Shown here one piece after another: positions 1 to 14,832 of a stretch of 64,000 bases of DNA. Source of the stretch: Alcaligenaceae bacterium CGII-47 (GTDB lineage Bacteria > Pseudomonadota > Gammaproteobacteria > Burkholderiales > Burkholderiaceae_B); NCBI GenBank assembly GCA_019166125.1, contig JAHTBO010000010.1, positions 1 through 64,000 of the forward strand, in the 5' to 3' direction. Every line of letters starts with the position of its first letter. Positions within the stretch are counted from its first letter, which is position 1. A program made the translations under genes and the position numbers. The notes below the pieces were generated by a model. That model saw only the letters and a program-made list of their open reading frames with translations, made no database searches and was not told where the DNA came from.

Positions 1-248
1 TTTAAAAGGTCGGGCCGGGGACGCCATCCATGCGGTGCTGTGCGCGGTGGGCTTTAATATGAAGTGGCTGCTGCGCATGATCGCCCGAAAGGGCGTTCTG
101 CCCTTCTTTTTGTCTCTTTTTTATGTCTTGATAATAGCTGGTGTGTCGCGCGAAGCCGAAGGGGCTGACTACCAAGGGGATTTTAATCGCCTCAGCGCGG
201 CTTAAATTTGACCGGAAGACGTCAAAATGAATTCTTCAGGTTCGACTA
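1..248 (+). mobile_element. Right end of an IS5-like insertion sequence (partial)
   Basis: The first ~250 bases hold the 3' end of a transposase gene followed by about 45 non-coding bases. The coding sequence of the neighbouring binding protein stops resembling its family at about position 248-252, which places the IS boundary there. The left end of the element lies outside the window. I could not identify the terminal inverted repeat or target duplication, because the other end is not visible. Confidence 0.7.
2..205 (+). CDS. IS5-family transposase, C-terminal fragment (runs in from the left)
   Basis: An open frame enters from the left edge and ends in TAA at 203-205. It encodes about 67 residues, beginning LKGRAGDAIHAVLCAVGFNM and continuing KWLLRMIARKG. 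This is the typical C-terminal part of IS5/IS1182-like DDE transposases, where a 'GDxxxAxLxAxGFNxxxLLR' stretch follows the last catalytic residue. The catalytic DDE residues themselves are upstream of the window. The gene is probably intact at this end. Its orientation is convergent with the truncated gene on the minus strand. Confidence 0.8.
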   Translation, partial: LKGRAGDAIHAVLCAVGFNMKWLLRMIARKGVLPFFLSLFYVLIIAGVSREAEGADYQGDFNRLSAA

Positions 249-1312
249 TGTACGCCCACGAGCTCGTGAGTAGAGACCAGGGCATCGCGCAGCGCCTCGC
301 GGAACTGCGGTGTACCCGGTTCGACCTGGGTCATTGCCCGCTGTGCAGCGTTGACGAAGAGCAGCCATGCATCAAAGGAATAAGCCGAGAAGGCATCAGT
401 CGGCACGGTGCCGTTGGCCTTTTCGTAGGCGGTGCGAAAGTCCATAGAGACCTTGCGTATGGGGTTGTCAGCCGGCAACTGCTCAGCCACAACAACCGGT
501 CCTGTAGGGGCGAGCAGGCCCTCTACGGAGGCGCGGCCGACGCGGACAAAGTCCGGGTTGATCAAGGCATGCATTCCGTAGAGTTTGCCTTTATAGCCCC
601 GGTCGGCCAGTGCCAGGTAGGGAAGCGCGCCGGGCGTGCCAGAGGTGCCGGTAATGACTGCGTCCGGGTTGAGCGCCACGATCTTGAGTATCTGGCCCGC
701 TACCGAGGCATCACCCCGGGCATAGCGCTCGTTGGATACAACCTTGATGTCGGCAGTTGGGGCGATCTTGATCAGTGCGTCATACACTTGGTCGCCCCAT
801 GCGTCAGAGTAACCGATGTAACCGACGGTCTTCACGCCGGTGTTTTTCATATGCTCGACTACAGCGCTAAGCATCAAGGGTGCAGGCTGCGGGACGGTGA
901 TCATCCACGACCCTTCTTCCCCGGGAAGGTTGGAGTTGGCAATAGAGATCAGCGGCGTTTTCATCTCGCGGGCCACGGCGGCGATTGCCAGTGAACCAGG
1001 CGTGCCTGCGGTGCCGATGATGACGTCAACCTTGTTCTCGTCGATCAACTTGCGCGCGTTGCGTGCAGAGGTCGTGGGGTCCGAGCCATCATCAAGCTGA
1101 AAGACTTCGATTTTGTGGCCATCGATCTCGCTTTGGTAGGCGACACCGGCCTTCAAGCCTTTTTCATAAGGGATTCCAAGCGATGAAACCGGCCCTGATA
1201 AGGAAGTGACAAAGCCGACTTTGAGGTCGGCGGCATAGACGCTGGATGTCGCCCAGGCGCTAAGGCCCAGAGCGATGCCAGCAATAACTCGGAAGCATTT
1301 CACGATTTTCAT
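236..1312 (-). CDS. Branched-chain-amino-acid-type ABC transporter substrate-binding protein, 3' end truncated by IS
   Basis: Periplasmic binding protein of the LivK/Leu-Ile-Val type (peripla_BP_6), presumably capturing the aromatic substrate of the operon. I start it at ATG 1312 (MKIVKCF, with AAGGA 6-7 nt upstream) rather than at the longer ORF start. This gives a signal peptide of about 27 residues ending in VYA-A. The mature chain opens 'DLKVGFVTSLSGPVSSLG', typical of the family. The protein has 358 residues, and the last recognisable family sequence is THELVGVH. The expected remaining ~40 residues are replaced by 'SRT' and a stop, exactly at the IS junction. It is the last gene of the minus-strand operon. 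The fold probably lacks its final strand and helix, so it may be non-functional. Confidence 0.8.
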   Translation of the reverse strand: MKIVKCFRVIAGIALGLSAWATSSVYAADLKVGFVTSLSGPVSSLGIPYEKGLKAGVAYQSEIDGHKIEVFQLDDGSDPTTSARNARKLIDENKVDVIIGTAGTPGSLAIAAVAREMKTPLISIANSNLPGEEGSWMITVPQPAPLMLSAVVEHMKNTGVKTVGYIGYSDAWGDQVYDALIKIAPTADIKVVSNERYARGDASVAGQILKIVALNPDAVITGTSGTPGALPYLALADRGYKGKLYGMHALINPDFVRVGRASVEGLLAPTGPVVVAEQLPADNPIRKVSMDFRTAYEKANGTVPTDAFSAYSFDAWLLFVNAAQRAMTQVEPGTPQFREALRDALVSTHELVGVHSRT

Positions 1313-1454
1313 GAGAGTCCTTTTAAGAAGCTGAACGAGGTCAAGGGGAATGGATGCGCTTGGCATGCGCGGTCAGCGGCATGAGTTATTAGCATCACTA
1401 ATGAATTACTTAGATATGAACTATCAGGGTAAAAAAACATGGAATCAGGCAGGC

Positions 1455-2267
1455 TTATGACCCGCTCTCCACCAGGGCCAGCACCCGTAACGGGCTGCCA
1501 CTGCCCTGGCTGATCTTTAGCGGCGGGCAGATCAATACCGCCCCAGTAGGTGGCAGTAAATCGAGATTGCACAGGCACTGCAGGCCGTAGCGCCCCGCAC
1601 CGTGCATGAAATAGTGACAAGGGTAGGGTGGGCGCAGGTGATAGCCTTGCCCTGCGTCCGTGCCGATGGCCTCGGATCCGAAACCCAGCACGTCGCGCTG
1701 CTCGACGAGAAAACGCACCGCCTCTGTGCCCGGGCCTGGTGTGTGCTGTCCCGTTTCGTCGAAATTCTGATAGGCCTCGGGATCCTGACGCTTGGACCAA
1801 TCCGTGCGCATCAGCACCCAGGCGCCGCGAGGGATGCGTCCATGGGCAGCTTCAAATTGCTCGATGTCCGCTACCGTCAGCAGATAGTCGGGGTTGGATT
1901 TTGCCTGCTCAGAGCAATCGATGACGCACGCTGCTGCCACAAAGTTTTGCACAGGAATTGTGTCGACGGAGTTGTTGGGCAGATCACGCCCCGTTATCCA
2001 GTGGATAGGTGCGTCGAAGTGCGTCCCGGTATGCTCCCCACAAGAAAAATTGTTCCAGTACCAGCCCGGACCGCGATCGTCGTACTTGGAGATCTCTTCG
2101 ATACGAAAAGACCAGCATTGCCCCATCTCTGGTGGCAAGGCAATCTGCGGGAAATCTGGCGTGAGTGTCTGGGTAAGATCGATCACGCGTACGCGGCCGG
2201 TGCCTAAGGCATTTGCCAAGCCGCTGAGCAGCTCGGCGACGGGTAGGGTGGAAGCGGGTTGGGTCAT
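1455..2267 (-). CDS. Cyclase family protein (kynurenine-formamidase-like metal hydrolase)
   Basis: 270-residue protein of the 'cyclase' family (PF04199), which includes kynurenine formamidase KynB and isatin hydrolase. The signature metal-binding motif HTGTHFDAPIH (HxGTHxDxPxH) is present at about residues 78-88. Members hydrolyse amide or lactam bonds using Mn/Zn. In an operon with indole-type enzymes, opening an oxindole/isatin-like ring or an N-formyl amide is a plausible role, by analogy with isatin hydrolase; that is inference. It lies 18 nt after the DUF35-SDR gene and 142 nt before the binding protein, so it is probably co-transcribed with the former. Confidence 0.85.
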   Translation of the reverse strand: MTQPASTLPVAELLSGLANALGTGRVRVIDLTQTLTPDFPQIALPPEMGQCWSFRIEEISKYDDRGPGWYWNNFSCGEHTGTHFDAPIHWITGRDLPNNSVDTIPVQNFVAAACVIDCSEQAKSNPDYLLTVADIEQFEAAHGRIPRGAWVLMRTDWSKRQDPEAYQNFDETGQHTPGPGTEAVRFLVEQRDVLGFGSEAIGTDAGQGYHLRPPYPCHYFMHGAGRYGLQCLCNLDLLPPTGAVLICPPLKISQGSGSPLRVLALVESGS

Positions 2268-2285
2268 TCTAAATTCCTTGGAAGA

Positions 2286-3539
2286 TCACTGGCCGTCGGC
2301 GGCCAGCTCGCGCTCGAGTACTTTTGGGTCTTCGCGCCAGCGCTCTAGCCATTCCTGAGCCACGTCACCCGGATAAATATCCTCGACGCCATCGCGCAGC
2401 GCCTTGATGATGGCATTGGCCAGCCCCGTCGGTGCCAGCTTTGGGGGTGGGGTGTGTTGGTTCCATTCATCGTCAATGGGCCCGGGAAAGCAATTGATGA
2501 CGCGGATCCCCGCTGGGCGCATCTCTGCGCGTAAGCATTGCGCCAGTGAATACGCCGCCGCCTTTGAGGCACTAAAGGTGCCGTGCGGTGGGAAGTTGGC
2601 GAGCGCATAGATCGATAGCAAGTTCACCCAGGCGGTGGCATGTGTCACGCCGTCGGCTGAGCGGCCTCTGAGCGCTGGGCCGAACTCCTGCGCTAAGCGC
2701 AGCAGGCCGAAGTAGTTGATGTCCATCTCGGCGCGTGCCATATCGGTACCGCGCCGCGCACTGATACCAAAGTTTCGGTGAACCTCGGCGTTATTGATGA
2801 CGATGTCGACCTTACCGCCGATCGCGCCAGCCAGCTCGGTGACTGAACGGCCGTCGCTCAGGTCCAGTGGCACCAACGCCACCTGGGGTAGCGCTGTCAG
2901 CTCGTCCAGTCCACCGAGCTTTTTCCATGGTTCCGCATGACCGACCCAGACGAGTTCGGCACCGGCCTTTACCAGCGCACGTACGATCGCCTGACCGACA
3001 GCGGTTTTACCGTCGGTCACCAGTGCCTTGCGGAACTTGGGGTCGCTGGTCATTTCTCTGAGCATTTTGTCATCAGCCATGTGAGGGCTCCCTTCGTATG
3101 GAAATCCGATCAATACGGCTTGTCCGCCGCGATCCAGACGCGCGCCTACCCGTACTCGTGTTGGGGCGTCGCCCACCTCTCCGTGCAGATGCACCATGAG
3201 GCTGGGTCCGGCATCCAGGCGTACCAGCCCCAGGCGCCAGGGCAGGCGCTCACGGAAAAACAGGTCGTTACTGTGATGCAGCGTCGTGCTGCTGAGCAGG
3301 TCGCCCTCGCCGCTTTGGGTGCGCCACACCAGGTGGGGGGATAGGCAGCGATGACAGGCCTCACGTGCGGGGTACTGTACGGTGCCGCACTCGACGCAGG
3401 TCTGTAATACAAAGCGGCCGTCGGCTGCGCCAGCGGTGATGCCCAGGGCCACGCGGCTACGCGCCCACGGTGGCAGGTTCATCTGACGTGTGCGCAGGAC
3501 GGGATTTTTGCGCTTGGGTTGCATCAGGGGCATGGTCAT
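2286..3539 (-). CDS. Zn-ribbon/OB-fold (DUF35) protein fused to a short-chain dehydrogenase-like domain
   Basis: 417 residues with two parts. Residues ~40-150 are a DUF35 acyl-CoA-binding OB-fold protein with a rubredoxin-like Zn ribbon (Cys48, Cys51, Cys62, Cys65). Residues ~168-417 have the SDR fold, with an NNA motif at 249-251 and Ser309. The SDR catalytic tyrosine is replaced by phenylalanine (GTFSASK, Phe322/Lys326), and the glycine-rich nucleotide motif is degenerate (TDGKTAVGQ). DUF35 proteins typically form a complex with the thiolase encoded next door. The start codon overlaps the thiolase stop by 4 nt (ATGA), fitting co-translation. The SDR half may be structural or have altered activity. 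Confidence 0.8.
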   Translation of the reverse strand: MTMPLMQPKRKNPVLRTRQMNLPPWARSRVALGITAGAADGRFVLQTCVECGTVQYPAREACHRCLSPHLVWRTQSGEGDLLSSTTLHHSNDLFFRERLPWRLGLVRLDAGPSLMVHLHGEVGDAPTRVRVGARLDRGGQAVLIGFPYEGSPHMADDKMLREMTSDPKFRKALVTDGKTAVGQAIVRALVKAGAELVWVGHAEPWKKLGGLDELTALPQVALVPLDLSDGRSVTELAGAIGGKVDIVINNAEVHRNFGISARRGTDMARAEMDINYFGLLRLAQEFGPALRGRSADGVTHATAWVNLLSIYALANFPPHGTFSASKAAAYSLAQCLRAEMRPAGIRVINCFPGPIDDEWNQHTPPPKLAPTGLANAIIKALRDGVEDIYPGDVAQEWLERWREDPKVLERELAADGQ

Positions 3540-4705
3540 GCCGGTCTTCCTAGAATCACCGCACCGCTACATAAGCCACGATCATAAGTGATCATGCCAA
3601 ACCCTGCGACCAAACCGAGTTGGGCGTTGGGTACGGCGCGTGTGTCGGCGGTATCGGTCAGCTGTCGGATGGCCTCGTTTAAACCCAGAAAGCTGCCTGC
3701 TGCACCCGCCTGGCCAGTCGAGAGTTGGCCGCCACTGGTGTTATTTGGAAAGCTGCCATCACTGGTGAGGGTATGAGATTGGACGAAGGCAGGCGCTTCA
3801 CCCTTCTCGCAGAAGCCCAGATCCTCAAACTGCATCATCACAATGACGGGATAGTCGTCGTAGGCCTGGATAAAGTCGATGTCAGCAGGCTTGGCGTCGG
3901 CCTGTGCATACAGATCATCGCGGTCCATGCGCCAGCCTCCGCGCACCATGATCGGATCCTCGGCATAAGCGTTGTGGCGCTCGATCGCACCGCGAATCAC
4001 CACATGGGGCAGACCCAGATCGCGTGCCCGCTCTTCGGTCATCACCAGAAATCCTTCGGCGCCGGCACAGGGCATCACGCAGTCAAATAGATGGATAGGA
4101 TCAGCAATTGGCCGCCCTGCCATGTATTCGTCGAGCGTCAGCGGCTTTTTGAACATGGCATTCGGATTACGTAGGGCATTGGTGCGTTGGGCCACTGCAA
4201 TGCGTCCGAAATCCTCGCGCTTGGCGCCAAAGGTGCGCATATAGTTTGCGGTGACCATCGCAAAGATGGAGTTCGGTCCGCCCGAACCATAGGGGTAAGT
4301 AGCGTCGCGTGCGAAGTGGCTGAAACTGCCCAGAGACTGACGAAATGAGTCGACGTGATTGGTGTCGGCCGCGACACACGCAACGACCTCGGCGTCGCCC
4401 GTCTGCACAGCGCGTGCGGCCCGGCGCAGGCACATCAAGCCCGCTGCCCCGCCCGTGGGCACGTGATCCAGCCAGCGTGGCGTCAGACCCAGGTGTTGTG
4501 TCACGCCGACAGCCGTGTCGGGCGCCAGAGAGAAGCTGCTCAGGCACAGGCCATCGATATCGTCTTTGACGAGCCCACTATCTTGAACCAGCGTGCGCAT
4601 CGCCTGGCCTAGAAACCAGTGTGCACCGCGCGTCGAATAGCGCTGGTAGGGCACAGTGACCGGTGTTGTCAGCGCGACGCCGTCATAGCTCATGCGCCGG
4701 CTCAT
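3536..4705 (-). CDS. Thiolase-like protein (SCP-x/archaeal thiolase family)
   Basis: 389 residues of thiolase superfamily sequence (for example HVPTGGAAGLMCLRRAARAV in the N-half and GGQLSTGQAGAAG in the C-half). The canonical N-terminal acylated cysteine is not at its usual place (GGAAG), and the usual GHP histidine is Gln. The C-terminal CxG cysteine is kept (RGLCSGAVIL). This is the variant found in thiolases that pair with DUF35 proteins. The expected role is C-C bond cleavage or formation on an acyl-CoA in the catabolic pathway. The start has a good SD (AGGAG). The stop overlaps the DUF35-SDR start, so the two are probably a complex. Confidence 0.8.
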   Translation of the reverse strand: MSRRMSYDGVALTTPVTVPYQRYSTRGAHWFLGQAMRTLVQDSGLVKDDIDGLCLSSFSLAPDTAVGVTQHLGLTPRWLDHVPTGGAAGLMCLRRAARAVQTGDAEVVACVAADTNHVDSFRQSLGSFSHFARDATYPYGSGGPNSIFAMVTANYMRTFGAKREDFGRIAVAQRTNALRNPNAMFKKPLTLDEYMAGRPIADPIHLFDCVMPCAGAEGFLVMTEERARDLGLPHVVIRGAIERHNAYAEDPIMVRGGWRMDRDDLYAQADAKPADIDFIQAYDDYPVIVMMQFEDLGFCEKGEAPAFVQSHTLTSDGSFPNNTSGGQLSTGQAGAAGSFLGLNEAIRQLTDTADTRAVPNAQLGLVAGFGMITYDRGLCSGAVILGRPA

Positions 4706-4721
4706 GAACGACTCCTGTTGA

Positions 4722-5243
4722 TCATCGTGCAGCCTCTGCTTGCAAACATTGACCGCCGACGTTCGTGCCTAACCGATGGTAGGCACGCTTGAAGTACGCC
4801 AGCCCGTCGCGAGAGTCGTCGTAGCGTACAGCCTTGATTTCACAATAGAAAATATGATGGGTGCCAACGTTTTGTGTTTGTACGATCGAGCAGTCGAAAC
4901 TGGCCAGTGCGCCGTCCAGGACGGGGGCGCCGGTGGCCAGCGTGCTCCAGGATGCCCGGGCAAAACGCTGCTCGCGGCTTAGCCCCCGAGTCGCAAAGGC
5001 GCGTGAAGCCTCCTCTTGATCAGCGCTCAGTACGTTCACGCACAGCACACCGTTCGCCCGTACCTTGGGTGCCAACTCTGAGGCGCTGTTCATGCAAACC
5101 AACAAGGTGGGTGGGCTGTCTGTCACGCTGCACACGGCCGAGGCGGTGAATCCGACGCGCTCTTCGGGCCCATCGGAGGTGATAACGCACACTGCGCTAC
5201 CCAGTAGCGCCATGCCGCTGCGGAACTCCTTGGTATCTGTCAT
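4722..5243 (-). CDS. Flavin reductase family protein (HpaC/RutF-like; IacG-type)
   Basis: 173-residue NAD(P)H:flavin oxidoreductase of the split-barrel FMN-binding family. Family sequence is seen at the N-terminus (FRSGMALLGSAVCVITSDG, then GFTASAVCSVTDSPP) and at the C-terminus (THHIFYCEIKAV, then LAYFKRAYH). Such proteins supply reduced flavin to a two-component monooxygenase. Here the likely partner is the acyl-CoA-dehydrogenase-fold oxygenase at 6421-7596 in the same operon. The equivalent in the indoleacetate iac cluster is IacG. The gap to the thiolase gene is 16 nt. A perfect GATATTAATATC palindrome (5244-5255) lies between its SD and start. Confidence 0.85.
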   Translation of the reverse strand: MTDTKEFRSGMALLGSAVCVITSDGPEERVGFTASAVCSVTDSPPTLLVCMNSASELAPKVRANGVLCVNVLSADQEEASRAFATRGLSREQRFARASWSTLATGAPVLDGALASFDCSIVQTQNVGTHHIFYCEIKAVRYDDSRDGLAYFKRAYHRLGTNVGGQCLQAEAAR

Positions 5244-5266
5244 GATATTAATATCCTTGGTGAGTG

Positions 5267-6007
5267 TTAGCGCATGTACAAGCCGCCGTTGACATCCCAG
5301 GTGGCGCCTGTGGTGAAATCCGCCTCAGGGCGCGCAAGTTGCACAACGAGCTCACCGATAAATTGCGCATTACCCAGATGGCGCACCGGGATGCCTGCGG
5401 TAAGCGCATCCAGGCGCTCACCCGACACCAGAGCATGAACCATCGGAGAGTCGATTGGCCCCGGCGCGATTGCATTGACCGTCACGCCGCGCGCTGCCAG
5501 CTCTTTGGCAAATACCTTGGTAAGGGTAATGATGGCGCCCTTAGAGGCAGCATAGTGTGCGCCGGTGGATGTACCACCGTTCTGCCCCGCCAGTGAAGTC
5601 ATATTGATGATGCGCCCATAGCCCGCCTCGGCCATGTGGGCGCCGAACACCTGGCAGCTAAAGAACGTGCCGCGCTGATTGACCGCAATGACGTCGTCGA
5701 ACTCCTCTTGGCTTATCTGCATGACCGGGGTGCTCTGGGTGATCGCAGCATTGTTAACGACCACATGCAGTGCACCCCAGCGTGCCTGCACGGCGGCCAG
5801 GGCGTCTTCGAAATCCGCCTTGTTTCGTGTATCCAGGGCGAGTCCCATCGCTGCGTCTTCGGTTGGATCCAGCTCGGCAGCAACCTTCTGGGCACCCTGC
5901 AGATTACGACCAGTCAGCGCCACCCGAAAGCCTGCGGCCAACAAGCGTTCGGCAATTGCGTAGCCCAGGCCCTGAGTGGCTCCGGTGACCAATGCGATGT
6001 GTTTCAT
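5267..6007 (-). CDS. SDR family NAD(P)-dependent oxidoreductase (FabG-like; IacE-type position)
   Basis: 246-residue classical short-chain dehydrogenase/reductase. It has the cofactor motif TGATQGLG near residue 8, the NNA motif, the catalytic Ser in NMTSLAG, and YAASK (Tyr and Lys of the active site). Substrate-side residues 'IAPGPIDSPM' follow. The ATG at 6007 is preferred over the TTG two codons upstream, because AAGGGG lies at SD distance. Its likely role is oxidising an alcohol or reducing a keto intermediate of the aromatic-acid pathway. An SDR (IacE) sits in a similar set in iac clusters. The specific substrate cannot be told from sequence. Confidence 0.85.
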   Translation of the reverse strand: MKHIALVTGATQGLGYAIAERLLAAGFRVALTGRNLQGAQKVAAELDPTEDAAMGLALDTRNKADFEDALAAVQARWGALHVVVNNAAITQSTPVMQISQEEFDDVIAVNQRGTFFSCQVFGAHMAEAGYGRIINMTSLAGQNGGTSTGAHYAASKGAIITLTKVFAKELAARGVTVNAIAPGPIDSPMVHALVSGERLDALTAGIPVRHLGNAQFIGELVVQLARPEADFTTGATWDVNGGLYMR

Positions 6008-6032
6008 GTCCAAGCCCCTTGTAAAATTTCTA

Positions 6033-6392
6033 TTAACTCTGGATCAGCAGTTCCCGGCCGACACGGGCTTCGACCTTGCCATATTTCCAGAGCTTGTAGG
6101 TACCATCCCCCACCGGTACGGTGCGAAATAGGTTGCAGGCGGCATGGACCGTGTCCAGGTCGGGGACATCCGCCATCAGGTAAGCCGTCCAGGGCCAGCT
6201 CGCTGACGGGCCGACCATGCTGCGATCGTCATCAAATGTGCCGATCAACTCGGTGCCCGGTAGCTCGACGATGCCGCGTAGCATCTGACCAAACGCAGCC
6301 CATACCTGCTTGGCTTCATCCGCTGTTGCATCAAAAAAATTCTGATTCACCCCAATACAGAACAGGACGCGTAGTTTGCTTGTGTCAGTCAT
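6033..6392 (-). CDS. Small conserved protein, IacB-like
   Basis: I start at ATG 6392 (AGGA upstream), giving 119 residues; a longer frame extends upstream into the monooxygenase gene without an SD. The protein opens MTDTSKLRVLFCIGVNQNFF and is Trp/Tyr-rich in the middle (SASWPWTAYLMADVPD). It ends with a predicted strand and helix, consistent with a small dimeric alpha/beta-barrel-type fold. By position (directly after the IacA-like gene) and size it fits IacB of indoleacetate clusters, a protein of unclear biochemical role. That assignment is inference from context and a vague sequence memory. No catalytic motif is visible. Confidence 0.6.
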   Translation of the reverse strand: MTDTSKLRVLFCIGVNQNFFDATADEAKQVWAAFGQMLRGIVELPGTELIGTFDDDRSMVGPSASWPWTAYLMADVPDLDTVHAACNLFRTVPVGDGTYKLWKYGKVEARVGRELLIQS

Positions 6393-6420
6393 AATGAAAT
6401 TTCCTTTGAAAATTGTTGGC

Positions 6421-7596
6421 TTACAGATAACCAGGTAACGGCGATTTGCCAAACAGCATGGCGCCTGCGCTTTGATAGGTGATATCGCCCATGAATGCGT
6501 GCTGGGTCACCGCCTGGGTGTCGTTGACGCAACGTGCCAGCGGGTGGTCGATATAGATGCCGTCCATGCCTGCGAGCATCTGGCAGGCGCGGGCAACCTG
6601 AGCCGCTGTACGGGTGGCATGCGTGGAGGACAGGCGCAATAAACTGGTTTGCTCGGGCGTGACCTCTCCTTGGGTCTGCAACTGATCCCAGGCCTGCTCC
6701 ATTGCCTCGTAAAAGAACGCACGGGCTGCGCGTAGTGCGGCGTCGGCCTTGGCGATCTCGAATTGTGTCAACGGTCGATCCGACATCATCGGTGCGCCTG
6801 TCACTGAGGGGCGCCCGCAGGCAATGTCGCGCAGGATGTCGATGGCGGCACGCGCCACACCCAGACCCACCACAGAGAGCACCTGTGTTGCAAAGGACAG
6901 AGAGGGGTAGCGAAAGAGTAAATCATCGATTTGTGGCTTGCCACCACGCACGAACGTCCAGTCCTCTGCGATGAATATTTCCTTATCGATGACCAGGTCG
7001 TGACTGCCCGTGGCAAGCAAACCCACGGTGTTCCAGGTTTCATCGATGTGTATGCGGTTGTCACGCGGCATCACAGCCATGCGCGGCAGGCCAAGCTTAT
7101 CGCCTTCGCGTGGCGCGATACCGACACCCAGGACGGTGGCACCGGTGCAGCCGCTGGAATACTTCCAGCGACCTTTGACCTGAAAGCCGCCGTCTGCCCG
7201 ATCCACCGGCTGCGGCGGAAATATACCACCTGCGAAGATCGGGTCGCACGATTGCGCAAAGATTTTTTCGATGGTTGCCGGTGGGAGGGCTGCCAAATAG
7301 AAAGGCCCCATGCCAAAGCTGGCTACCCAACCCGTCGACCCATCGGCTGCCGACAGCGCTTCGACCATCTCGCAAAATGCCATGGGCGAGCGCTCGTCAC
7401 CGCCGAACCGCTGGGGGACGAGCGCGCGGTAGACGCCAAGCTCGCGCAGGCGCGTTACAACATCTGCAGGTAGGCGGCGCTGGCGGTCGAACTCTCCGGT
7501 ACGCGCGCGCTCACGTACGTCCGCCAGGAGCGTCTGAAATGGCGTTGTTGCCAGCCATTGGCCAGCATGTGTATAGGTTTGGGTCTGAACAGTCAT
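6421..7596 (-). CDS. Acyl-CoA-dehydrogenase-fold flavin monooxygenase (IacA-like)
   Basis: 391 residues of group-D flavin monooxygenase/acyl-CoA dehydrogenase fold. Visible features are an N-terminal helical domain (RLRELGVYRALVPQRFGG), a central beta domain (GRWKYSSGCTGATVLGVG) and a C-terminal four-helix bundle ending in DITYQSAGAMLFGKSPLPGYL. The acyl-CoA dehydrogenase catalytic Glu is not evident. With a flavin reductase in the same operon, it is best read as a two-component hydroxylase like HsaA or IacA. IacA oxygenates indole-3-acetate; the true substrate here is unproven. Start ATG 7596 has GGAG at good spacing. The gap to iorB is 49 nt. Confidence 0.75.
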   Translation of the reverse strand: MTVQTQTYTHAGQWLATTPFQTLLADVRERARTGEFDRQRRLPADVVTRLRELGVYRALVPQRFGGDERSPMAFCEMVEALSAADGSTGWVASFGMGPFYLAALPPATIEKIFAQSCDPIFAGGIFPPQPVDRADGGFQVKGRWKYSSGCTGATVLGVGIAPREGDKLGLPRMAVMPRDNRIHIDETWNTVGLLATGSHDLVIDKEIFIAEDWTFVRGGKPQIDDLLFRYPSLSFATQVLSVVGLGVARAAIDILRDIACGRPSVTGAPMMSDRPLTQFEIAKADAALRAARAFFYEAMEQAWDQLQTQGEVTPEQTSLLRLSSTHATRTAAQVARACQMLAGMDGIYIDHPLARCVNDTQAVTQHAFMGDITYQSAGAMLFGKSPLPGYL

Positions 7597-7645
7597 TAAA
7601 TGCTCCGGGTATTTTTATGATTTGATGGTTGAAACATGCTCATCC

Positions 7646-9208
7646 TCACCTTGGTCCAACCTGTACCAAGGGTGTATTCTTATTAATTACGCCCTCATCC
7701 GACCTTGTCCTGCTAATCGGCGCCTGTTTGGCCAATGCTGCGCGCAACTTGTCCCCACGTTCGTCGGCCAGTGCGGCCTCGCGCCATTCGCGCAGCGTGG
7801 CGGGAGCCAGCGCGGTGCCAATGCGCTGCACCGCCTCCATCACGGCATCAAAGTTACGTTGGCCGTTCTCGTGGGTGTCGCTATAGCCCTTGACCAAACG
7901 CTGGCACTGCACCACCTCCACGGCCAGTTCGGGGTGACTGGTGGCGAGTTGCGCAATGGTCTGCAGCCAGGCTTCGATACGCTTGTTTTCCTGGGCATAG
8001 CGCATTGTTGAGCGGCGCCAGCAGCGCGCCCAGGCAACCGTGCGTAGCATCAGGTAGCCGGGAAGCGAACTGGTATGCATCTCGCGCCCCTTGCGTGTGA
8101 GGCGCTCAACGAGTTTGCGTGGCAGGCCCGAATTCATAAGCCAGCGGCCCAGAAAACCGGGTAAGGTCTCGCAGATCTCCTGGAGGCGTGGATGCATGAA
8201 TTCGTGAATATCGATCACTTGATCCGGATTGGCTCGGGTCTCTGTCCGCACACGCTCAAAGCGTGTGTCGCGGGTCTTGAGTTGCGCCACGCGCGCGGTG
8301 TCCTCGTAGGACATCCATAACGCCAGAAAACGTGCGGTCTCGCGCAACAGACGGCCACCATCATCGGTGGGTAACGCGCAGATGCTGACCATTCGGTTTA
8401 GGTACAGATCAGCGTAGTCGGTATCCTGATAGTCGATCAGACGGCGTACGCCCTCGAGCAGCATCGGGTGCGCGTCAATCGGAAAGTCACGCTGTGCGCG
8501 CTCGACAAGCGCGCGCACCTTGGGGTGGCGCGGCTGGGGCGGCGTAATTTTGACCTGCGGCTTGTCGGGCTCTGAGGCCTCGCCCTGTGCCCGCGTAAAG
8601 GCCGCATCAAACGCCTTCAGGCTAGGCTTGACGCCGACGCCTCCGCGTTCAATCGTGGCCTCGAACTGCGCACGCGAGAAAGGCAGCGCACCGCTGCCTG
8701 CCAGCGCACCAAAGAGCACCGCGCTGATGACACTGCCCGCGTTCTCTGCCGCCTCGGCCATATCGAAACGAATAAAGCGGCGCGCTGCGCGCCGCGCGTG
8801 TGCAAGCAACTGTGTGCTGTCAACGCGACCATCGCCCATCGCGCTTTTCTCGGCGATTGAGTAAACACGATGGGTGGATGCGATAAGCGTGGTGCGCTCG
8901 GCGGTCACCAGCCCGCGTTGGACTGCACGCCCCGCCTCCATGAGTTCAGAGGCCAGCACCACATCCACGTCACCGGGTAGGGGCATAAGCGCCAATACGG
9001 GATGCCCGCCATCGGCCTGCGCCTGCGCCTGTGGATACAGCTCTACATAATATATTGTCGCGCCGGTACGTTGAGCGACGCCTGGGACAGACGTATTTTG
9101 TGCCAGGTAGCCATGATGTTCGCCCAGGTTGACGATCCAGTCGGCCAGCACGCCGCCGCCCTCGCCGCCCATGGCGAGGATTGCGATCTTGATTGGTTGT
9201 GCAGACAT
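7646..9208 (-). CDS. iorB: Indolepyruvate:ferredoxin oxidoreductase beta-subunit family protein with long C-terminal extension
   Basis: 520 residues. The first ~200 match the gamma/beta domain of 2-oxoacid:ferredoxin oxidoreductases (IAILAMGGEGGGVLADWIV, then VPGVAQRTGATIYY, then GDVDVVLASELMEAGRAVQRG). The remaining ~300 residues are a helical extension (DUF6537-type) found in proteobacterial IorB-like proteins but not in the short archaeal IorB. It probably acts with the IorA-type subunit encoded 10 nt upstream, oxidatively decarboxylating an aryl pyruvate, or running a related reaction on an aryl-acetyl intermediate, with ferredoxin as partner. The precise substrate is inferred only from operon context. 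Confidence 0.85.
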   Translation of the reverse strand: MSAQPIKIAILAMGGEGGGVLADWIVNLGEHHGYLAQNTSVPGVAQRTGATIYYVELYPQAQAQADGGHPVLALMPLPGDVDVVLASELMEAGRAVQRGLVTAERTTLIASTHRVYSIAEKSAMGDGRVDSTQLLAHARRAARRFIRFDMAEAAENAGSVISAVLFGALAGSGALPFSRAQFEATIERGGVGVKPSLKAFDAAFTRAQGEASEPDKPQVKITPPQPRHPKVRALVERAQRDFPIDAHPMLLEGVRRLIDYQDTDYADLYLNRMVSICALPTDDGGRLLRETARFLALWMSYEDTARVAQLKTRDTRFERVRTETRANPDQVIDIHEFMHPRLQEICETLPGFLGRWLMNSGLPRKLVERLTRKGREMHTSSLPGYLMLRTVAWARCWRRSTMRYAQENKRIEAWLQTIAQLATSHPELAVEVVQCQRLVKGYSDTHENGQRNFDAVMEAVQRIGTALAPATLREWREAALADERGDKLRAALAKQAPISRTRSDEGVINKNTPLVQVGPR

Positions 9209-9218
9209 TCAGCTGTCC

Positions 9219-11438
9219 TTAGAAGGCGAAGCGCGCGCGCCGCTTGGCCTCGATGCGCTGCAGCCGGCCGATGATCGTATTGCGCACGCGTTGGCGTATG
9301 CGGTCCCAGCGGCTGGGGTTGGTGACGATGCGCGCACGATAAAATGAAGGGCATAACACGGCTGCCAGAGCGACATCACCACAATGACCGCAGCCCACGC
9401 AACTATCGAGCACGGTCGTCACTGGGTCGGTACGCAATGGATCCGGATTGGGCATGATCGATAGAGACGGACAGCCCGAGAGACGAATGCATGAGTGGTC
9501 GCCAGTACAGGTATCAGAGTCAACGCCGAATTTCTCACGCACGACGCGCTTGCCTGCTGCAACAGCCTTGCGTACAAGTGGTTTTTCGCGGCGCTGGCGG
9601 TTGAGCATGCATTCGGACTGTGCAACCAGTACCTTGGGGCCCTTCTCGGTGGTGGTGAGGGCTTCTTTGATGGTATCGCGCATCGCGGCCACATCGTAGG
9701 TGCGAGTAATCTTGCGGATCCATTTCACGCCGACCCCACGCACAGCGGTCTCGATTTCGTGGCCGGTACTGCGCGTCGGATTTTTGGCGTTTGAGGACAA
9801 GATATCCTGTCCACCAGTCGCCGCCGTGTAATCATTGTCGATCACGATCGTGAGGTTGTCGCTACGGTTGAATACGGCATTGGCGACGCCACTGGTCAGG
9901 CCGTTATGCCAGAAGCCGCCGTCACCCATCATCGAGATCGCGCGTTTATCGGCGGGTACATTAAAGGCCGAAGCGCTCGCGGCGCCCAGGCCGTACCCCA
10001 TGGTCGTATTACCCAGGTTAAAGGGCGGCAGGATAGAGAACAAATGACACCCGATATCTGCGCTGATGTGATGCGTGCCAAGCTCTCGCTCGACAAGTTT
10101 CAATGCGCTAAAGATCGGTCGCTCTGGGCAACCCGTACAAAAGCCTGGCGGTCGCGCATGCACGCTCTCGTCAAGCGGCTGGAACGTTATTTCTTCTACA
10201 TCCATGTTCTGCGACGTGACGAGCTCTCGTACTGGCGCTGGGATCGTCTCGTCCACCTCGCGCGCAATCACCCTGCCCTTAGGCGCGGGTGCGTCGGGTT
10301 GCGGCGCCAAACGCTGGTAGCGCTCGGCGAAAGTGCGCACACCTTGGAGCAGCACCTGTGCAGAGTATTCGCCCGCCATCGGAAGCATGTCTTTGCCATG
10401 CAGTGCCGCGGACACACCTGCTTGGCGCAGGATCGTGGCCATGTTCTGCTCGAGGAAGTTGGGCTGACCCTCCTCGACCATCAGCACGGCTCGTTTGTTG
10501 CGACAAAAGCGCAGTACCTCGCTCTCGATAACCGGGTAGGCGACATTCATCACGTACAAGGGGATCTTGGTGTTGCCGTAGATATCCGCCAGCCCCAGGC
10601 GCTCGAGTGCGCGCAGCAGCGTGTTGTAGCTGCCGCCTTGTACGATGATGCCGATGTCATCTGCATCCTCGGCAAAGAACTCGTTGAGCGCACGCTCCTC
10701 GATGAAACGCACTGCAGCGGGCCAGCGCTCGTTTATCTTTTCCTTCTCGTGTATAAAACTGTCAGGCGGCAGCACGATGCGGTGGACATCGCGTTGTGGT
10801 TGCTCCATCGCCTGCTTCAAGGTAAAACGCGGTTGAAGGTTATCAGCGGCAACAAAGCTGCCGTGTACGTGACAAGCACGGATACGTAGCTGCAGCATCA
10901 CTGGGGTGTTGCTGGCTTCAGAGAGCTCAAAGCCGTGCTTGACGGCCGCCACAATGTCCGGCAGATTGGTGCGCGGGTCAAGCAACCACATTTGTGACTT
11001 CATGGCAAAGGCGTGGCTACGTTCCTGCATGATGGATGAGCCTTCGCCATAATCCTCGCCCACAATCACCAATGCACCGCCGATGACCCCGCCTGAAGAC
11101 AAATTCGCCAAGGCGTCTGAGGCAACGTTCGTACCTGCCGTCGCTTTAAACGTGACCGCACCGCGTAAGGGATAGTTCACTGAGGCGGCCAATGTGGCAG
11201 CAGCCGTTGCCTCGCTGGCGCTATTCTCGAAGCGCACGCCGTGCTCAGACAAAATATCCTGGGCGTCTGCCAATACATCCATCAAGTGCGAGATCGGCGC
11301 ACCCTGATAGCCTGCAACGTAGGAAACACCGGACTCCAGCAGGGCTTTTGTGACCGCTAGAATGCCTTCGCCGCGGAATACCTCGCCTGCACCGAGTCGC
11401 AGTTTCTTAACTTCTTCGACGAACGAACGCTCTGCCAT
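9219..11438 (-). CDS. iorA: Indolepyruvate:ferredoxin oxidoreductase alpha-subunit family (TPP- and Fe-S-binding)
   Basis: 739 residues from ATG 11438, which has a GGGGAAGG SD; the ORF continues 14 codons upstream. Order: pyrimidine-binding N-domain (GYQGAPISHLMDVL), transketolase-like middle, TPP-binding domain (PPGFCTGCPER, then GDGGFWHNGL and NDYTAATGGQ). A C-terminal ferredoxin-like segment follows with clustered cysteines, the second group being CVGCGHCGDVALAAVLCPSF. Together with IorB it forms an oxygen-sensitive 2-oxoacid oxidoreductase transferring electrons to ferredoxin. It is the first gene of the ten-gene operon, divergent from the MarR regulator across a 257-bp promoter region. 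Confidence 0.88.
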   Translation of the reverse strand: MAERSFVEEVKKLRLGAGEVFRGEGILAVTKALLESGVSYVAGYQGAPISHLMDVLADAQDILSEHGVRFENSASEATAAATLAASVNYPLRGAVTFKATAGTNVASDALANLSSGGVIGGALVIVGEDYGEGSSIMQERSHAFAMKSQMWLLDPRTNLPDIVAAVKHGFELSEASNTPVMLQLRIRACHVHGSFVAADNLQPRFTLKQAMEQPQRDVHRIVLPPDSFIHEKEKINERWPAAVRFIEERALNEFFAEDADDIGIIVQGGSYNTLLRALERLGLADIYGNTKIPLYVMNVAYPVIESEVLRFCRNKRAVLMVEEGQPNFLEQNMATILRQAGVSAALHGKDMLPMAGEYSAQVLLQGVRTFAERYQRLAPQPDAPAPKGRVIAREVDETIPAPVRELVTSQNMDVEEITFQPLDESVHARPPGFCTGCPERPIFSALKLVERELGTHHISADIGCHLFSILPPFNLGNTTMGYGLGAASASAFNVPADKRAISMMGDGGFWHNGLTSGVANAVFNRSDNLTIVIDNDYTAATGGQDILSSNAKNPTRSTGHEIETAVRGVGVKWIRKITRTYDVAAMRDTIKEALTTTEKGPKVLVAQSECMLNRQRREKPLVRKAVAAGKRVVREKFGVDSDTCTGDHSCIRLSGCPSLSIMPNPDPLRTDPVTTVLDSCVGCGHCGDVALAAVLCPSFYRARIVTNPSRWDRIRQRVRNTIIGRLQRIEAKRRARFAF

Positions 11439-11530
11439 ATTGCCTTCCCCTTGCAGCAACCTGCTAGCCAATGATGCCATTATGTTTATAACTGAACAAA
11501 TGCAAAATCATGAAAAACCCTAATAAGCAT

Positions 11531-11599
11531 ACAAATAATTTATCTGCGAGCCGGATTGGCTTGGGTATGGATCGGGCTGTTACAACGCCAATTATTTGT
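11531..11599. promoter_or_regulatory. Inverted-repeat pair between iorA operon and marR (candidate operator)
   Basis: ACAAATAATT (11531-11540) and its exact reverse complement AATTATTTGT (11590-11599) lie 49 bp apart in the AT-rich divergent promoter region. The arrangement could serve as a paired operator for the adjacent MarR regulator. There is no second copy elsewhere to confirm it, so it is a candidate only. Confidence 0.35.
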
Positions 11600-11695
11600 G
11601 GTAAAAGAGTAGGCCCTTTGGGCATATTCCTAATAGAGTTGGCATAGCTACGCAACGTAATAAGGCCTCTTCGCGTTCATTTATCGGCCCTCTCA

Positions 11696-12181
11696 ATGGC
11701 ACCAATCAGCCCTGAACCGCTACGTTTTATTGACGATTACCTTCCTGCTCTGCTGGCTCATACCAGCAAGTGCATTTCCTCTGAGTTTCACGAAATCGCC
11801 CGTCAAAATGGGCTTTCGGTCTCTGAGTGGCGGGTGATGGCATCGCTCTCGGGCGGGGGGCCATTAAGCGTCGGGCAGCTTGCACAGGTGACGCTCTCCA
11901 AGCAGTCAACGGTGACGCGCCTTCTGGACCGTATGCAAGCCAAGGGTCAGGTCGAGCGTCTGCGTCACGAGATCGACCGCCGCGTCATATTGGTGCGTAT
12001 TACGCCCGAGGGGGCCAAGGTCGTGGATCACTTGATCGTGCTTGCGCGCGAACATGAATTACGCGTGCTCGAGCCCTTGGGCCGCGTTCGCGCCGAGGAT
12101 CTCAAGAGCATGCTGCGACAATTGATTCATCAGTACATGCCCATGCAGCCCGAACGAGGCGAAAGTCAGGATGCTGATTGA
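11696..12181 (+). CDS. MarR family transcriptional regulator (IacR/IadR-like position)
   Basis: 161 residues with a MarR winged helix. The helix-turn-helix and wing run LSVSEWRVMASLSGGGPLSV, then QLAQVTLSKQSTVTRLLDRM, then LRHEIDRRVILVRITPEG with the conserved D-R-R of the wing. Helices at both ends serve dimerisation. MarR proteins guard aromatic-acid catabolic operons, and auxin-degradation clusters are typically controlled by MarR proteins, so it most likely represses the divergent iorA operon until the substrate or its CoA form binds. The ATG at 11696 lacks a clear SD, so the start is uncertain. It is followed by rplC in the same direction with no clear terminator. Confidence 0.85.
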   Translation: MAPISPEPLRFIDDYLPALLAHTSKCISSEFHEIARQNGLSVSEWRVMASLSGGGPLSVGQLAQVTLSKQSTVTRLLDRMQAKGQVERLRHEIDRRVILVRITPEGAKVVDHLIVLAREHELRVLEPLGRVRAEDLKSMLRQLIHQYMPMQPERGESQDAD

Positions 12182-12242
12182 TGCCCACCATATCGGCGGA
12201 TTTGTGACGACGCAACACCTGGGTATCAGGGGGATCTGGTAG

Positions 12243-12272
12243 TTGCGTGCGCAGTCCCTCACATGCTACTAT
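12243..12272 (+). promoter_or_regulatory. Candidate sigma-70 promoter of the rplC operon
   Basis: TTGCGT (12243-12248) and TACTAT (12267-12272) are separated by 18 nt, about 115 nt upstream of rplC. With rpsJ not in front, rplC needs its own promoter or read-through from marR. The match is moderate. Confidence 0.4.
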
Positions 12273-12386
12273 TGCGAGCTTAGCCGTTTTATTTGCGACT
12301 AAATACACAGTAAAGTGGTACAAAAAGAGCCCCGACCAATCGTAGTTGGGAATGAATAACTCAGGGTACACACCCCGGAGAAAACA

Positions 12387-13073
12387 ATGTCGAATCCGAC
12401 ACCTACGCCTGCGGCCTGGCGCCTTGGGCTTGTGGGACGCAAGGTTGGCATGACCCGTATTTTCACAGAGGATGGCGAATCCATCCCGGTGACTGTGCTG
12501 GACGTGTCCAATAACCGCGTCACTCAGGTCAAGACACCAGATGTTGATGGTTACGCAGCAGTACAAGTTGCCTACGGCACCCGGCGCGCCTCTCGCGTGA
12601 CCAAGCCTCAGGCAGGGCATTATGCCAAGGCCGGCACCGAAGCCGGTAGCATCCTTAAAGAATTCCGTCTCGATCCTGCACGCGCCGCCGAATTTACGGC
12701 CGGCTCAGTCGTCGCTGTCGAGTCCCTATTCGAAGCAGGCCAAAAAGTTGATGTGACAGGTACCTCGATCGGTAAAGGCTTTGCCGGCACGATCAAGCGC
12801 CACAATTTCAGCGGGCAGAATGCGTCGCACGGTAACTCGCGCTCGCACCGCGTGCCAGGTTCCACGGGTCAGTCCCAGGATCCAGGCCGTGTATTCCCCG
12901 GCAAGAAAATGGCGGGTCATATGGGCGCTGCAACATGTACCGTCCAGAACCTTGATGTGATTCGTGTCGATGCCGAACGCGGCTTGTTGATGGTCCGAGG
13001 CGCTGTGCCCGGCCACAAGAACGCTGATATCGTCGTGCATCCCGCGATCAAGATGTCTGCCAAAGGAGCCTAA
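12387..13073 (+). CDS. rplC: 50S ribosomal protein L3
   Basis: 228 residues, very close to Bordetella/Achromobacter L3. It opens with [18 protein letters not shown] and contains the L3 signature region around [13 protein letters not shown], plus the tentacle ending in [14 protein letters not shown]3 binds 23S rRNA near the peptidyl-transferase centre and nucleates 50S assembly. The start has GGAG 7 nt upstream. It is the first gene of the S10-type cluster here; rpsJ, which usually precedes rplC, is absent from the window. The stop is followed 2 nt later by rplD. Confidence 0.97.
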
Positions 13074-13075
13074 TC

Positions 13076-13699
13076 ATGGAACTCAAGCTCCTGAATGATC
13101 AGGGTCAATCCACCGCGACGTTTGCCGCCCCCGAAACTGTGTTCGGCCGCGACTTCAACGAGGCGCTCGTGCACCAGATCGTCGTTGCCTATCAGGCTAA
13201 CGCCCGGATGGGTAATCGCGCTCAAAAAGATCGCGGCACGGTCAAACACTCCACCAAAAAGCCCTGGCGTCAAAAGGGCACCGGTCGTGCCCGTTCGGGG
13301 ATGACTTCCTCGCCGATCTGGCGTGGGGGTGGTCGTGCATTCCCGAATTCTCCCGACGAGAACTTCAGCCACAAAGTCAACAAGAAAATGTACCGTGCCG
13401 GTTTGCGCGCCATTTTCTCGCAACTGGCACGCGAAGACCGCATTGCCGTGCTCGAGACCTTTGCGCTGGACTCTCCTAAAACCAAAGCTGCAGCCGCTAA
13501 GCTCAAGGATTTGGGGGTTGTCGGTTCGGTGTTGATCATTACTGACGCACTGGACGAAAACGTCTATCTCGCAACGCGCAATCTGCCCAATGTGGCCGTA
13601 ATCGAAACGCGTTATGCCGATCCCCTGTCCCTGGTTCACTACAAAAAAGTATTGATCACCAGGTCAGCGGTCGCCCAACTCGAGGAGATGCTGGGATGA
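13076..13699 (+). CDS. rplD: 50S ribosomal protein L4
   Basis: 207 residues with the L4 central loop ([20 protein letters not shown]), which lines the peptide exit tunnel next to L22. In gammaproteobacteria L4 also represses its own S10 operon through the leader. Whether that applies here is unknown, since the canonical operon start (rpsJ) is missing. The reading frame overlaps rplW by 4 nt (ATGA), fitting translational coupling. Confidence 0.97.
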
Positions 13700-13992
13700 A
13701 TGCCGAACGTTTGATGCAAATCATTCTTGCACCCGTGGTGACCGAAAAGGCTACTATGGTTGCCGAAAAAAATAACCAGGTCGCTTTCCGCGTCGTGGCC
13801 AATGCGACCAAACCCGAGATCAAGGCGGCCGTTGAGCTGCTGTTCAAAGTTGAAGTCGAATCTGTGCAGGTCCTCAACCGCAAGGGTAAGGAAAAGCGCT
13901 TTGGTCGTTTCATGGGTCGCCGCAATCATGAGCGCAAGGCCTATGTCAGCCTCAAGGCTGGTCAGGAAATCGACTTTACGGAGGTGAACTAA
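13696..13992 (+). CDS. rplW: 50S ribosomal protein L23
   Basis: 98 residues, L23 family ([20 protein letters not shown] near the N-terminus, then the loop [16 protein letters not shown]). L23 sits at the tunnel exit and is the docking site for trigger factor and SRP. It overlaps rplD by 4 nt, and its stop codon directly abuts the rplB start. Confidence 0.97.
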
Positions 13993-14820
13993 ATGGCACT
14001 CGTAAAAGTCAAGCCAACATCCCCTGGCCGTCGTGGCATGATCAAGGTCGTCCACCCCGAATTGCACAAGGGCGAGGGTTACGCACCTTTGCTCGAGCCG
14101 CAGTCTCGTGGCTCAGGGCGTAACAACAACGGCCACATCACGGTACGCCACCGTGGGGGCGGCCACAAGCAACACTATCGCGTGGTCGATTTTCGTCGCA
14201 ATAAGGACGGTATCGTTGCCAAGGTTGAGCGTCTCGAGTATGACCCCAACCGCAGCGCGCACATTGCTTTGCTTTGCTATGCCGATGGCGAGCGTCGCTA
14301 TATCATTGCGCCGCGTGGTCTAGAGGTCGGCGCCAAGCTGGTCTCGGGCACGGATGCGCCGATTCGGGCAGGCAATACGCTGCCGATTCGCGTGATTCCT
14401 GTCGGGGCGACGATTCACTGCATCGAGATGCAACCCGGCAAGGGTGCACAGATGGCCCGTTCGGCGGGTGCTTCGGCAGTCTTGCTGGCTCGCGAAGGCG
14501 TCTATGCTCAGGTTCGTCTGCGCTCGGGCGAGGTCCGTCGCGTGCATATTGACTGCCGTGCAACGATCGGTGAGGTCGGTAATGGCGATCACAGTCTGCG
14601 TCAAATCGGCAAAGCTGGCGCGATGCGCTGGCGTGGTGTCCGTCCGACCGTTCGTGGTGTTGCCATGAACCCGGTGGATCACCCGCATGGTGGTGGCGAA
14701 GGCCGCACCGGCGAAGGCCGCGAACCTGTCAGCCCGTGGGGTACACCCGCCAAGGGCTACAGGACCCGTCGTAACAAGCGCACAGACAATATGATTGTCT
14801 CGCGCCGCAAGCGCAAGTAA
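13993..14820 (+). CDS. rplB: 50S ribosomal protein L2
   Basis: 275 residues, full length. Conserved regions are [17 protein letters not shown] near residue 40 and the C-terminal [18 protein letters not shown] with the essential histidine (HGGG), then [20 protein letters not shown]2 is needed for subunit joining and peptidyl transfer. The start codon follows the rplW stop with no spacer, and the GGAGGTG SD lies inside rplW. Confidence 0.98.
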
Positions 14821-14832
14821 GGGGCGAACAAC

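Follow-up and report, generated by a model that had tools for sequence, protein, structure and literature searches.

The stretch analysed here (the window) comprises the first 64,000 nucleotides of contig JAHTBO010000010.1 (C41 below) from the 3.45-Mb genome of Alcaligenaceae bacterium CGII-47 (GCA_019166125.1), which we place in the Castellaniella group, and it opens with a gene cluster that recalls both the iac and the iad clusters for aerobic breakdown of the auxin indole-3-acetate (IAA). Ten co-directional open reading frames (ORFs) on the reverse strand and a divergent MarR gene lie where an earlier reading of the DNA, made without database searches (the sequence-only reading below), had placed them, and Pfam and NCBIfam assignments fit the gene names chosen there, except for the ORF at 6033-6452, which matches no family. 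Because the gaps from iorA to iadI measure only -4 to 49 bp with the revised starts given below, it is plausible that the ten genes form one operon.

In the direction of transcription, the run begins with the IadA/IorA-like subunit (9219-11438, listed ORF to 11480), a protein of the thiamine pyrophosphate and iron-sulfur type that is 79-81% identical to IadA of the Variovorax loci L076, L093 and L104. It probably starts at 11438 (a MAERSF start, common to L044). It scores 287 bits with TIGR03336, the indolepyruvate:ferredoxin oxidoreductase equivalog, short of the curated cut-off of 651; PF02775 is its sole Pfam match, and a PF01855 search of the strain's own genome gave no match. The IadB/IorB-like subunit (7646-9208; PRK08312, DUF6537) exceeds the cut-off of NF006179 (729.6 bits against 348). 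There follow IacA (6421-7596), a flavin-dependent IAA monooxygenase with acyl-CoA dehydrogenase fold, and IacB (6033-6392, listed ORF to 6452), which probably starts at 6392 and is 49-72% identical to IacB of other loci. No sequence match to IacB was found in Pfam, NCBIfam or PDB, and its single-sequence model (pLDDT 74.5) gave weak ferredoxin-like matches only (best E 2.8e-3). IacE (5267-6013), a short-chain dehydrogenase/reductase (SDR) with intact TGxxxGxG and YxxxK, and the flavin reductase IacG (4722-5243; PF01613, with the RutF and HpaC models scoring under their own cut-offs) are 69% and 63% identical to their counterparts in the iac locus L205. The thiolase-like IadG (3536-4705; YDDY motif), for which we propose a retro-aldolase function, IadH (2286-3539), in which a DUF35 part (ChsH2-type zinc ribbon and OB fold) is fused to an SDR whose YxxxK Tyr is Phe, and IadI (1455-2267), of the cyclase family PF04199, precede an IadK2-like IAA-binding protein (substrate-binding protein, SBP; 236-1312, listed ORF to 1366). 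The sequence-only reading was right to see a binding protein at 236-1366, but the gene is not intact, as its coding region is truncated by an insertion sequence (IS), whose 3' end, encoding the transposase C-terminus, occupies 1-235 on the forward strand. On the other side, a divergent promoter region of 257 bp (11439-11695) separates iadA from iadR (11696-12181, forward strand), the gene of a MarR-family repressor predicted to respond to IAA, and rplC (12387-13073, forward strand) marks the right-hand edge of the island.

An iac-type block in an iad-type setting

The canonical iad gene order is A-B-C-D-E-F-G-H-I-J-SBP. In the window, the positions of C, D, E and F are occupied by IacA, IacB, IacE and IacG, and IadJ is missing. 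Homology bears out the mixture described in the sequence-only reading, an iac-type first oxygenase set together with an indolepyruvate-oxidoreductase-like pair and CoA-type enzymes; the similarity of 6421-7596 to IacA-type oxygenases is present, the best match among the examined loci (66% identity) lying in L205, a canonical iac cluster that also has IacH, B, C, D, E and G. IacC and IacD are likewise part of the canonical iac loci that we inspected (L205-L209, L212 and L036-L038). As that reading had also held, there is no Rieske gene among the ten: queries for IacC, IacD, IacH, IadC, IadD and IadE (one reference each) gave no match at E 1e-5 in the whole window, in contig C9, which carries the other part of the insertion sequence, or in two further 20-kb stretches of C41. 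A single IadD query likewise found no match in the whole genome, an empty answer that, with no positive genome alongside, shows little.

Both markers described as exclusive to iad (Conway 2022), iorA/iadA and iorB/iadB, are present, and of three named iac markers the operon has iacA and iacB. The adjacent iacC/iacD-type Rieske genes of an iad-like locus are absent, as is the IacC/IacD Rieske pair of an iac-like locus, and because the Rieske anchor of both published classes is lacking, the operon fits neither. IadCDE and IadJ are assigned to the two oxidations from IAA to dioxindole-3-acetate (DOAA) (Jiang 2025, PMC12633357), and IacA and IacE are described for the same two oxidations (Conway 2022, PMC9613470). 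The latter paper reports activity of IacA on free IAA and, from work on P. phytofirmans, the pairing of IacG with IacA and of IacB with IacE. Since both enzyme sets are described for the same reactions, the swap exchanges like for like, and IacA-B-E-G should reach the intermediate that the Rieske block IadCDE with IadF reaches, namely DOAA.

The MarR protein matches the solved structures of Variovorax MarR_73 (IadR; PDB 7kki and 7kfo) at E 5e-62 to 8e-62. The SBP matches PDB 7ylt, which we take to be IadK2 of Ma et al. 2023, at E 1.3e-176. With the numbering offset set on F168, seven of eight checked residues fit the numbering in the IadK2 paper (PMC10374108), T125 being the misfit; W172, R199, F308, Y311 and N126 of the pocket are kept, F168 is replaced by Tyr and S104 by Thr. 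All seven IAA contacts given for IadR (Y15, A18, S28, H32, W45, R46 and V65; Conway 2022, PMC9613470) are identical in the window's repressor. In the iadR-iadA region, where the IadR operator site is expected, the window has no exact palindrome with arms of at least 6 and none of the 30 commonest 11-mers from the corresponding regions of ten relatives (four more relatives gave no usable match).

With the IadR contacts, the SBP match and an isatin hydrolase match described below, IAA is, as judged from the sequence, the most likely substrate and the iad route the most likely lower route. The sequence-only reading had proposed a different route for an indole or aryl acid; its mix of iac-type and CoA-type enzymes stands, whereas the lower route would be the known one of iad (DOAA, isatin, isatinate) and the substrate would be IAA. 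That the operon serves another indole or aryl acid, such as indolepyruvate, which IorAB would turn into indoleacetyl-CoA, seems to us very unlikely. IorAB do bear indolepyruvate-oxidoreductase names, and several loci in the family have iorAB beside genes of the ABM type (presumably a two-domain relative of salicylyl-CoA 5-hydroxylase) without IadG or IadH, so that IorAB-type enzymes may use more than one substrate. But the seven conserved contacts of the repressor, an SBP nearest to an IadK2-type protein, an isatin hydrolase, which suits a route from indole to isatin, and the reported activity of IacA on free IAA all speak for IAA. We consider it probable that the locus is a Rieske-free hybrid operon for aerobic IAA breakdown, in which an upper part of iac type would be joined to a lower part of iad type at DOAA.

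Side-chain loss, isatinate and the IadAB step

The label "thiolase" in the sequence-only reading does not suit IadG, in which the nucleophilic Cys is absent by alignment (26 rows): position 84, Thr in 25 rows and Asn in one, is surrounded by the invariant residues P83, G85, G86 and A87. Cys209, Cys213 and Cys379 are invariant too (26/26). Motifs were counted in 121 IadG hits and 118 IadH hits, sets that are dominated by close Variovorax relatives and in which overlapping loci count separately. The pattern VPxGG was read in 77 IadG hits and missed in 44, and YDDY occurs in 119, with YDHA in the remaining 2. The IadH zinc ribbon, Cys-x2-Cys-x10-Cys-x2-Cys, is found in 118/118 hits, and the catalytic Tyr of the SDR domain is kept in 15, the others having Phe (89), Trp (8), His (2) or an unread residue (4). 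Without this Tyr in most hits, the SDR domain of IadH may serve as a scaffold rather than as a dehydrogenase. A gene fusion of Ltp and DUF35 that had been suspected in L045 turned out to be a frame artefact.

An AlphaFold model of IadG built on the 26 rows (pLDDT 75, pTM 0.83; weak at 121-143, 200-212, 249-256 and 325-335) has the Sal-Shy and Ltp2-ChsH2 aldolases (9myr, 6ok1) as its nearest folds, thiolases coming next with scores nearly as good. According to Rolfe 2025 (PMC12329534), the Tyr of YDHF/YDCY is the base and Sal is incapable of thiolysis. Alignment and model suggest that IadG is probably not a thiolase. As it lacks the thiolase nucleophile and its model is closest to the Sal and Ltp2 retro-aldolases, the side chain is likely to be lost by retro-aldol cleavage and not by the thiolysis that the sequence-only reading had suggested as possible. 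The alcohol of DOAA-CoA, a beta-hydroxyacyl-CoA, is tertiary, which bars its oxidation to a beta-ketoacyl-CoA; the substrates of Ltp2 are, we assume, likewise tertiary beta-hydroxyacyl-CoAs.

Two findings weigh against retro-aldol cleavage. Both known second acids are absent from IadG, in which Asp284, within the motif in 26/26 rows, stands at the place of Sal Cys304, and Gly334 (26/26) stands by alignment at the place of Ltp2 Tyr344. Moreover, Variovorax without IadI accumulates a compound C8H7NO2, the formula of dioxindole and not of isatin (Jiang 2025, PMC12633357), and a plain retro-aldol step leaves this accumulation unexplained. The same compound favours the annotation in that paper, by which IadG and IadH are a true thiolase and an alcohol dehydrogenase and the acetyl group would be lost reductively to give dioxindole. 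We regard this as unlikely, given the Thr or Asn at the nucleophile position of IadG, the aldolases as nearest folds of its model, the scarcity of the catalytic Tyr in the SDR domain of IadH and the chemistry of the tertiary alcohol.

Retro-aldol cleavage of DOAA-CoA would yield isatin, the substrate expected for IadI, which is homologous to solved isatin hydrolases over nearly its whole length (PDB 5nna, E 4e-110). The "lactam hydrolase" of the earlier reading is thus better called an isatin hydrolase homologue, which agrees with the ring opening that had been ascribed to the cyclase-family protein.

Isatinate is 2-aminophenylglyoxylate, a 2-oxoacid, and IorAB-type enzymes convert a 2-oxoacid and CoA to an acyl-CoA and CO2. 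IadAB may act on isatinate in this way to form 2-aminobenzoyl-CoA, a proposal that we hold as likely to be right as wrong. Flanks of 1.5 kb were inspected for 29 other iorB loci (L007-L035; 76 genomes had a match). A thioesterase, ABM or second-MarR gene of the 2-aminobenzoyl-CoA route is present in 16 of them, the Rieske gene IadD in 7 and IadG/IadH in 3 (all Castellaniella), and 3 contain none of the reference genes. In L047, genes for an isatin hydrolase (56%), an ABM-type protein, a thioesterase and a second MarR form one array with iorBA. These neighbourhoods and the L047 array support the conversion of isatinate to 2-aminobenzoyl-CoA, short of proof. Beyond its CoA ligase gene, C9 carries on the other strand an ABM-type gene, an SDR, a second MarR, acyl-CoA dehydrogenases, a ligase and a FadB/J-like protein. 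The ABM-type gene scores 1357 bits (cut-off 1078) with NF006101, a model named salicylyl-CoA 5-hydroxylase, and this second ligase scores 364 bits with TIGR02262, of the benzoate-CoA-ligase family, just short of the cut-off of 375. The cluster resembles the aerobic 2-aminobenzoyl-CoA route as given in PMC4539516 and PMC6221969. Against a role of IadAB in this route speak the location of Variovorax iadAB outside a nine-gene region sufficient for anthranilate formation (Jiang 2025, PMC12633357) and a plasmid-borne hybrid in Neorhizobium, introduced below, which has no iorAB within 31 kb.

As a separate observation, clusters of iorA-iorB with a MarR, thioesterase or ABM/salicylyl-CoA 5-hydroxylase-type gene recur in the family, mostly without IadG/IadH (L047, L042, L010-L024, L026), and may degrade another 2-substituted phenylglyoxylate.

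Distribution, origin and genomic setting

Of 10 genomes of the genus, 4 have IacA (E 1e-40), and exactly these 4, the window genome among them, have IadH (E 1e-60). The other three (G323, G400 and G464) share a second arrangement, iadA-B-G-H-I-SBP-transporter-ligase followed by iacA-B-E-G; the gene set of G464 is split over two contigs, and an ABM gene follows iacG in G323 and G464. An even draw of 398 genomes over the phylum gave 12 with IacA (E 1e-75), 8 with IadH (E 1e-60) and one, the window genome, with both. For the order, 12 of 399 genomes had IadH in one draw and 4 of 300 had IacA in another, different sets that each count the window genome. Among the best 80 of 359 relatives in a comparison of IadH loci from named genomes, covering at most 10 kb on each side, IadD is present in 77 and an IadJ-type SDR in 79, and IacA in none; IadD is absent from two short contigs (L123, L140) and from a Castellaniella record (L151). 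In a sample of 13 loci from the order, IadD is present in 10, and the window, the related G323 and L066 are without it. A search of 72,556 plasmid records found IacA in 41, IadH (E 1e-60) in 34 and both in a single one. This plasmid, NZ_CP025513.1 of Neorhizobium sp. SOG26, has IacB, IacA, IacE and IacG beside a convergent array of ligase, IadI, IadH, IadG and transporter genes; within 31 kb, neither the Rieske nor the iorAB references gave a match.

Several further loci were also noted. L213, L214 and L215 from the phylum draw have IadG-IadH-IadI, and neither a Rieske gene nor IacA was found within 20 kb; L039, L210 and L211 have an IacA-like gene (42-44%), and IacB or a Rieske gene was not found. 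A conjugative IncP plasmid of Delftia acidovorans (L219, NZ_CP065667.1) carries at 11974-15093 an iacA-like gene, a partial SDR, a PDR/VanB reductase and a flavin reductase, and IacB, Rieske, IadG and IadH gave no match in the 25 kb searched. A literature search, with most subscription papers outside its reach, found no Rieske-free iac/iad hybrid, DOAA retro-aldolase or isatinate-oxidising IadAB. Fragmentary iad-like clusters (iad-2) described for Sphingopyxis and Sphingomonas in PMC11630574 might be of the same kind.

The trees suggest that such hybrids were assembled repeatedly. In the IacA tree (23 rows), the row nearest to the window is the iac locus of G769 (66%). A single clade of the window and the three other Castellaniella is rejected for IacA (p-AU 0.004) and for IadG+H+I (33 rows; p-AU 0.005), values that are weakened by the choice of this group after the identities had been seen; in the latter tree, IadH is missing for one row and the G464 row is joined from two contigs. 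As both trees reject one clade, separate assembly in the window and in the other Castellaniella is probable. The small trees of IacB, IacE and IacG do not reject one clade (p-AU 0.14, 0.18 and 0.38) and are compatible with either history. A single origin in Castellaniella, with the differing gene order and the closer matches elsewhere explained by later gene replacement, could draw on these trees, on the shared genus and on the same type of ligase and transporter (70% identity for the C9 ligase and 72% for LivH, both to G400). Set against the two rejections and the different gene order, this account appears to us rather improbable, and it leaves the Neorhizobium hybrid untouched. For the latter, repeated assembly is clearer: neither tree places its row with any Castellaniella. 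For IacA it sits among the iac loci of Thioclava, Martelella, Sagittula and G887, and for IadG+H+I it groups with two genomes of the phylum draw that lie outside the order.

The insertion sequence, presumably of the IS5 type, connects the operon to C9. Window positions 1-235 are mostly the C-terminal end of its transposase, the N-terminus lies at the end of C9 (26,916 bases), and the 7 bases TACATAG flank the element on both sides; we infer the join C9-IS-C41. Inward of the element, C9 has the missing end of the SBP gene, LivH, LivMG, LivF and the AMP-dependent CoA ligase (NF004808, 815 bits against a cut-off of 722). A polar effect of the element on the transporter and ligase genes is possible and may impair the operon of this strain, a point against its function here. 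With the IS inside the SBP gene and upstream of these genes, the operon could be a decaying remnant; we think this quite unlikely, since its other genes are open over their full length, the SBP is not essential in Variovorax (PMC12633357) and three relatives have the gene set with no such break seen.

The island also seems to split the S10 ribosomal operon: on C9, rpsJ (L180, 603-911) has unrelated genes behind it, and on C41 the gene before rplC is iadR (window 12181-12387). In 6 of 7 other loci examined in the genus, rpsJ lies 0.2 to 0.73 kb before rplC. In the 1.5 kb before rplC, the seventh (L182 of G419, 1-1500) has no rpsJ but two other genes, by sequence reading one of Rieske type and one resembling class II aldolases. 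Catabolic islands may thus use the rpsJ/rplC junction as a landing site.

Proposed route and comparison with known systems

Our data suggest the following model. On binding IAA, IadR would release the operon. IacA, with reduced flavin from IacG, would oxidise IAA, and IacE with IacB would take the product to DOAA, steps that are published for iac and are carried over here by homology. The CoA ligase encoded on C9, beyond the insertion sequence, would convert DOAA to DOAA-CoA, which IadG and the DUF35 part of IadH would cleave to isatin and acetyl-CoA. IadI would hydrolyse isatin to isatinate, IadAB would perform the oxidative decarboxylation to 2-aminobenzoyl-CoA, the least certain step, and the product would enter the neighbouring monooxygenase/beta-oxidation cluster. 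The whole sequence, from IacA-B-E-G through CoA activation, the IadG-IadH retro-aldol step and isatinate to 2-aminobenzoyl-CoA, might constitute a third aerobic route of auxin breakdown, put together on more than one occasion from two known ones and bypassing both free anthranilate and catechol; we put this tentative proposal slightly on the doubtful side. The operon itself is a new combination of known parts for a known substrate.

A large published survey of auxin-degrading loci is anchored on adjacent Rieske genes; because of this anchor it would miss such loci, so that the number of auxin degraders may be underestimated. The hybrids point to DOAA as an interchange where the lower part of one pathway can take over from the upper part of another, a connection probably made on more than one occasion, and they sharpen two published iad assignments, the nature of IadG/IadH (retro-aldolase or thiolase) and the role of IadA/IadB.

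Compared with the iad-like locus of Variovorax paradoxus CL14 (iadA-K2), the window shares IadR, IadA, IadB, IadG, IadH, IadI and the SBP, with the same gene order around the swapped block, and IadG, H and I are 74-90% identical to those of the 80 named iad loci where present. It differs in that the Rieske system IadC, D and E, as well as IadF and IadJ, were not found in the operon, in having IacA-B-E-G instead, and in a ligase from another family (PRK06155). With iac loci of the Pseudomonas putida 1290 type it shares homologues of IacA, IacB, IacE and IacG, whereas its order is A-B-E-G, its repressor is of iad type, and no IacC, IacD, IacH or IadC/IacF-like reductase was found with one reference each. 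IadI matches the isatin hydrolases (PDB 5nna, 4j0n) along nearly the whole sequence. The putative retro-aldolase resembles Ltp2-ChsH2 and Sal-Shy in its thiolase fold without nucleophilic Cys, in the Tyr of YDxF/Y and in a DUF35 zinc partner, whose motif is as in ChsH2, while the partner of Sal has Cys3His. Its own motif is YDDY instead of YDHF or YDCY, its DUF35 partner is fused to an SDR and not to a MaoC hydratase, and its proposed substrate is a small indole rather than a steroid side chain. Finally, C9 shares with the aerobic 2-aminobenzoyl-CoA pathway of Azoarcus evansii the ABM-type two-domain oxygenase, a ligase, acyl-CoA dehydrogenases and a FadB/J-like protein, but its route would receive isatinate through IadAB besides free anthranilate.

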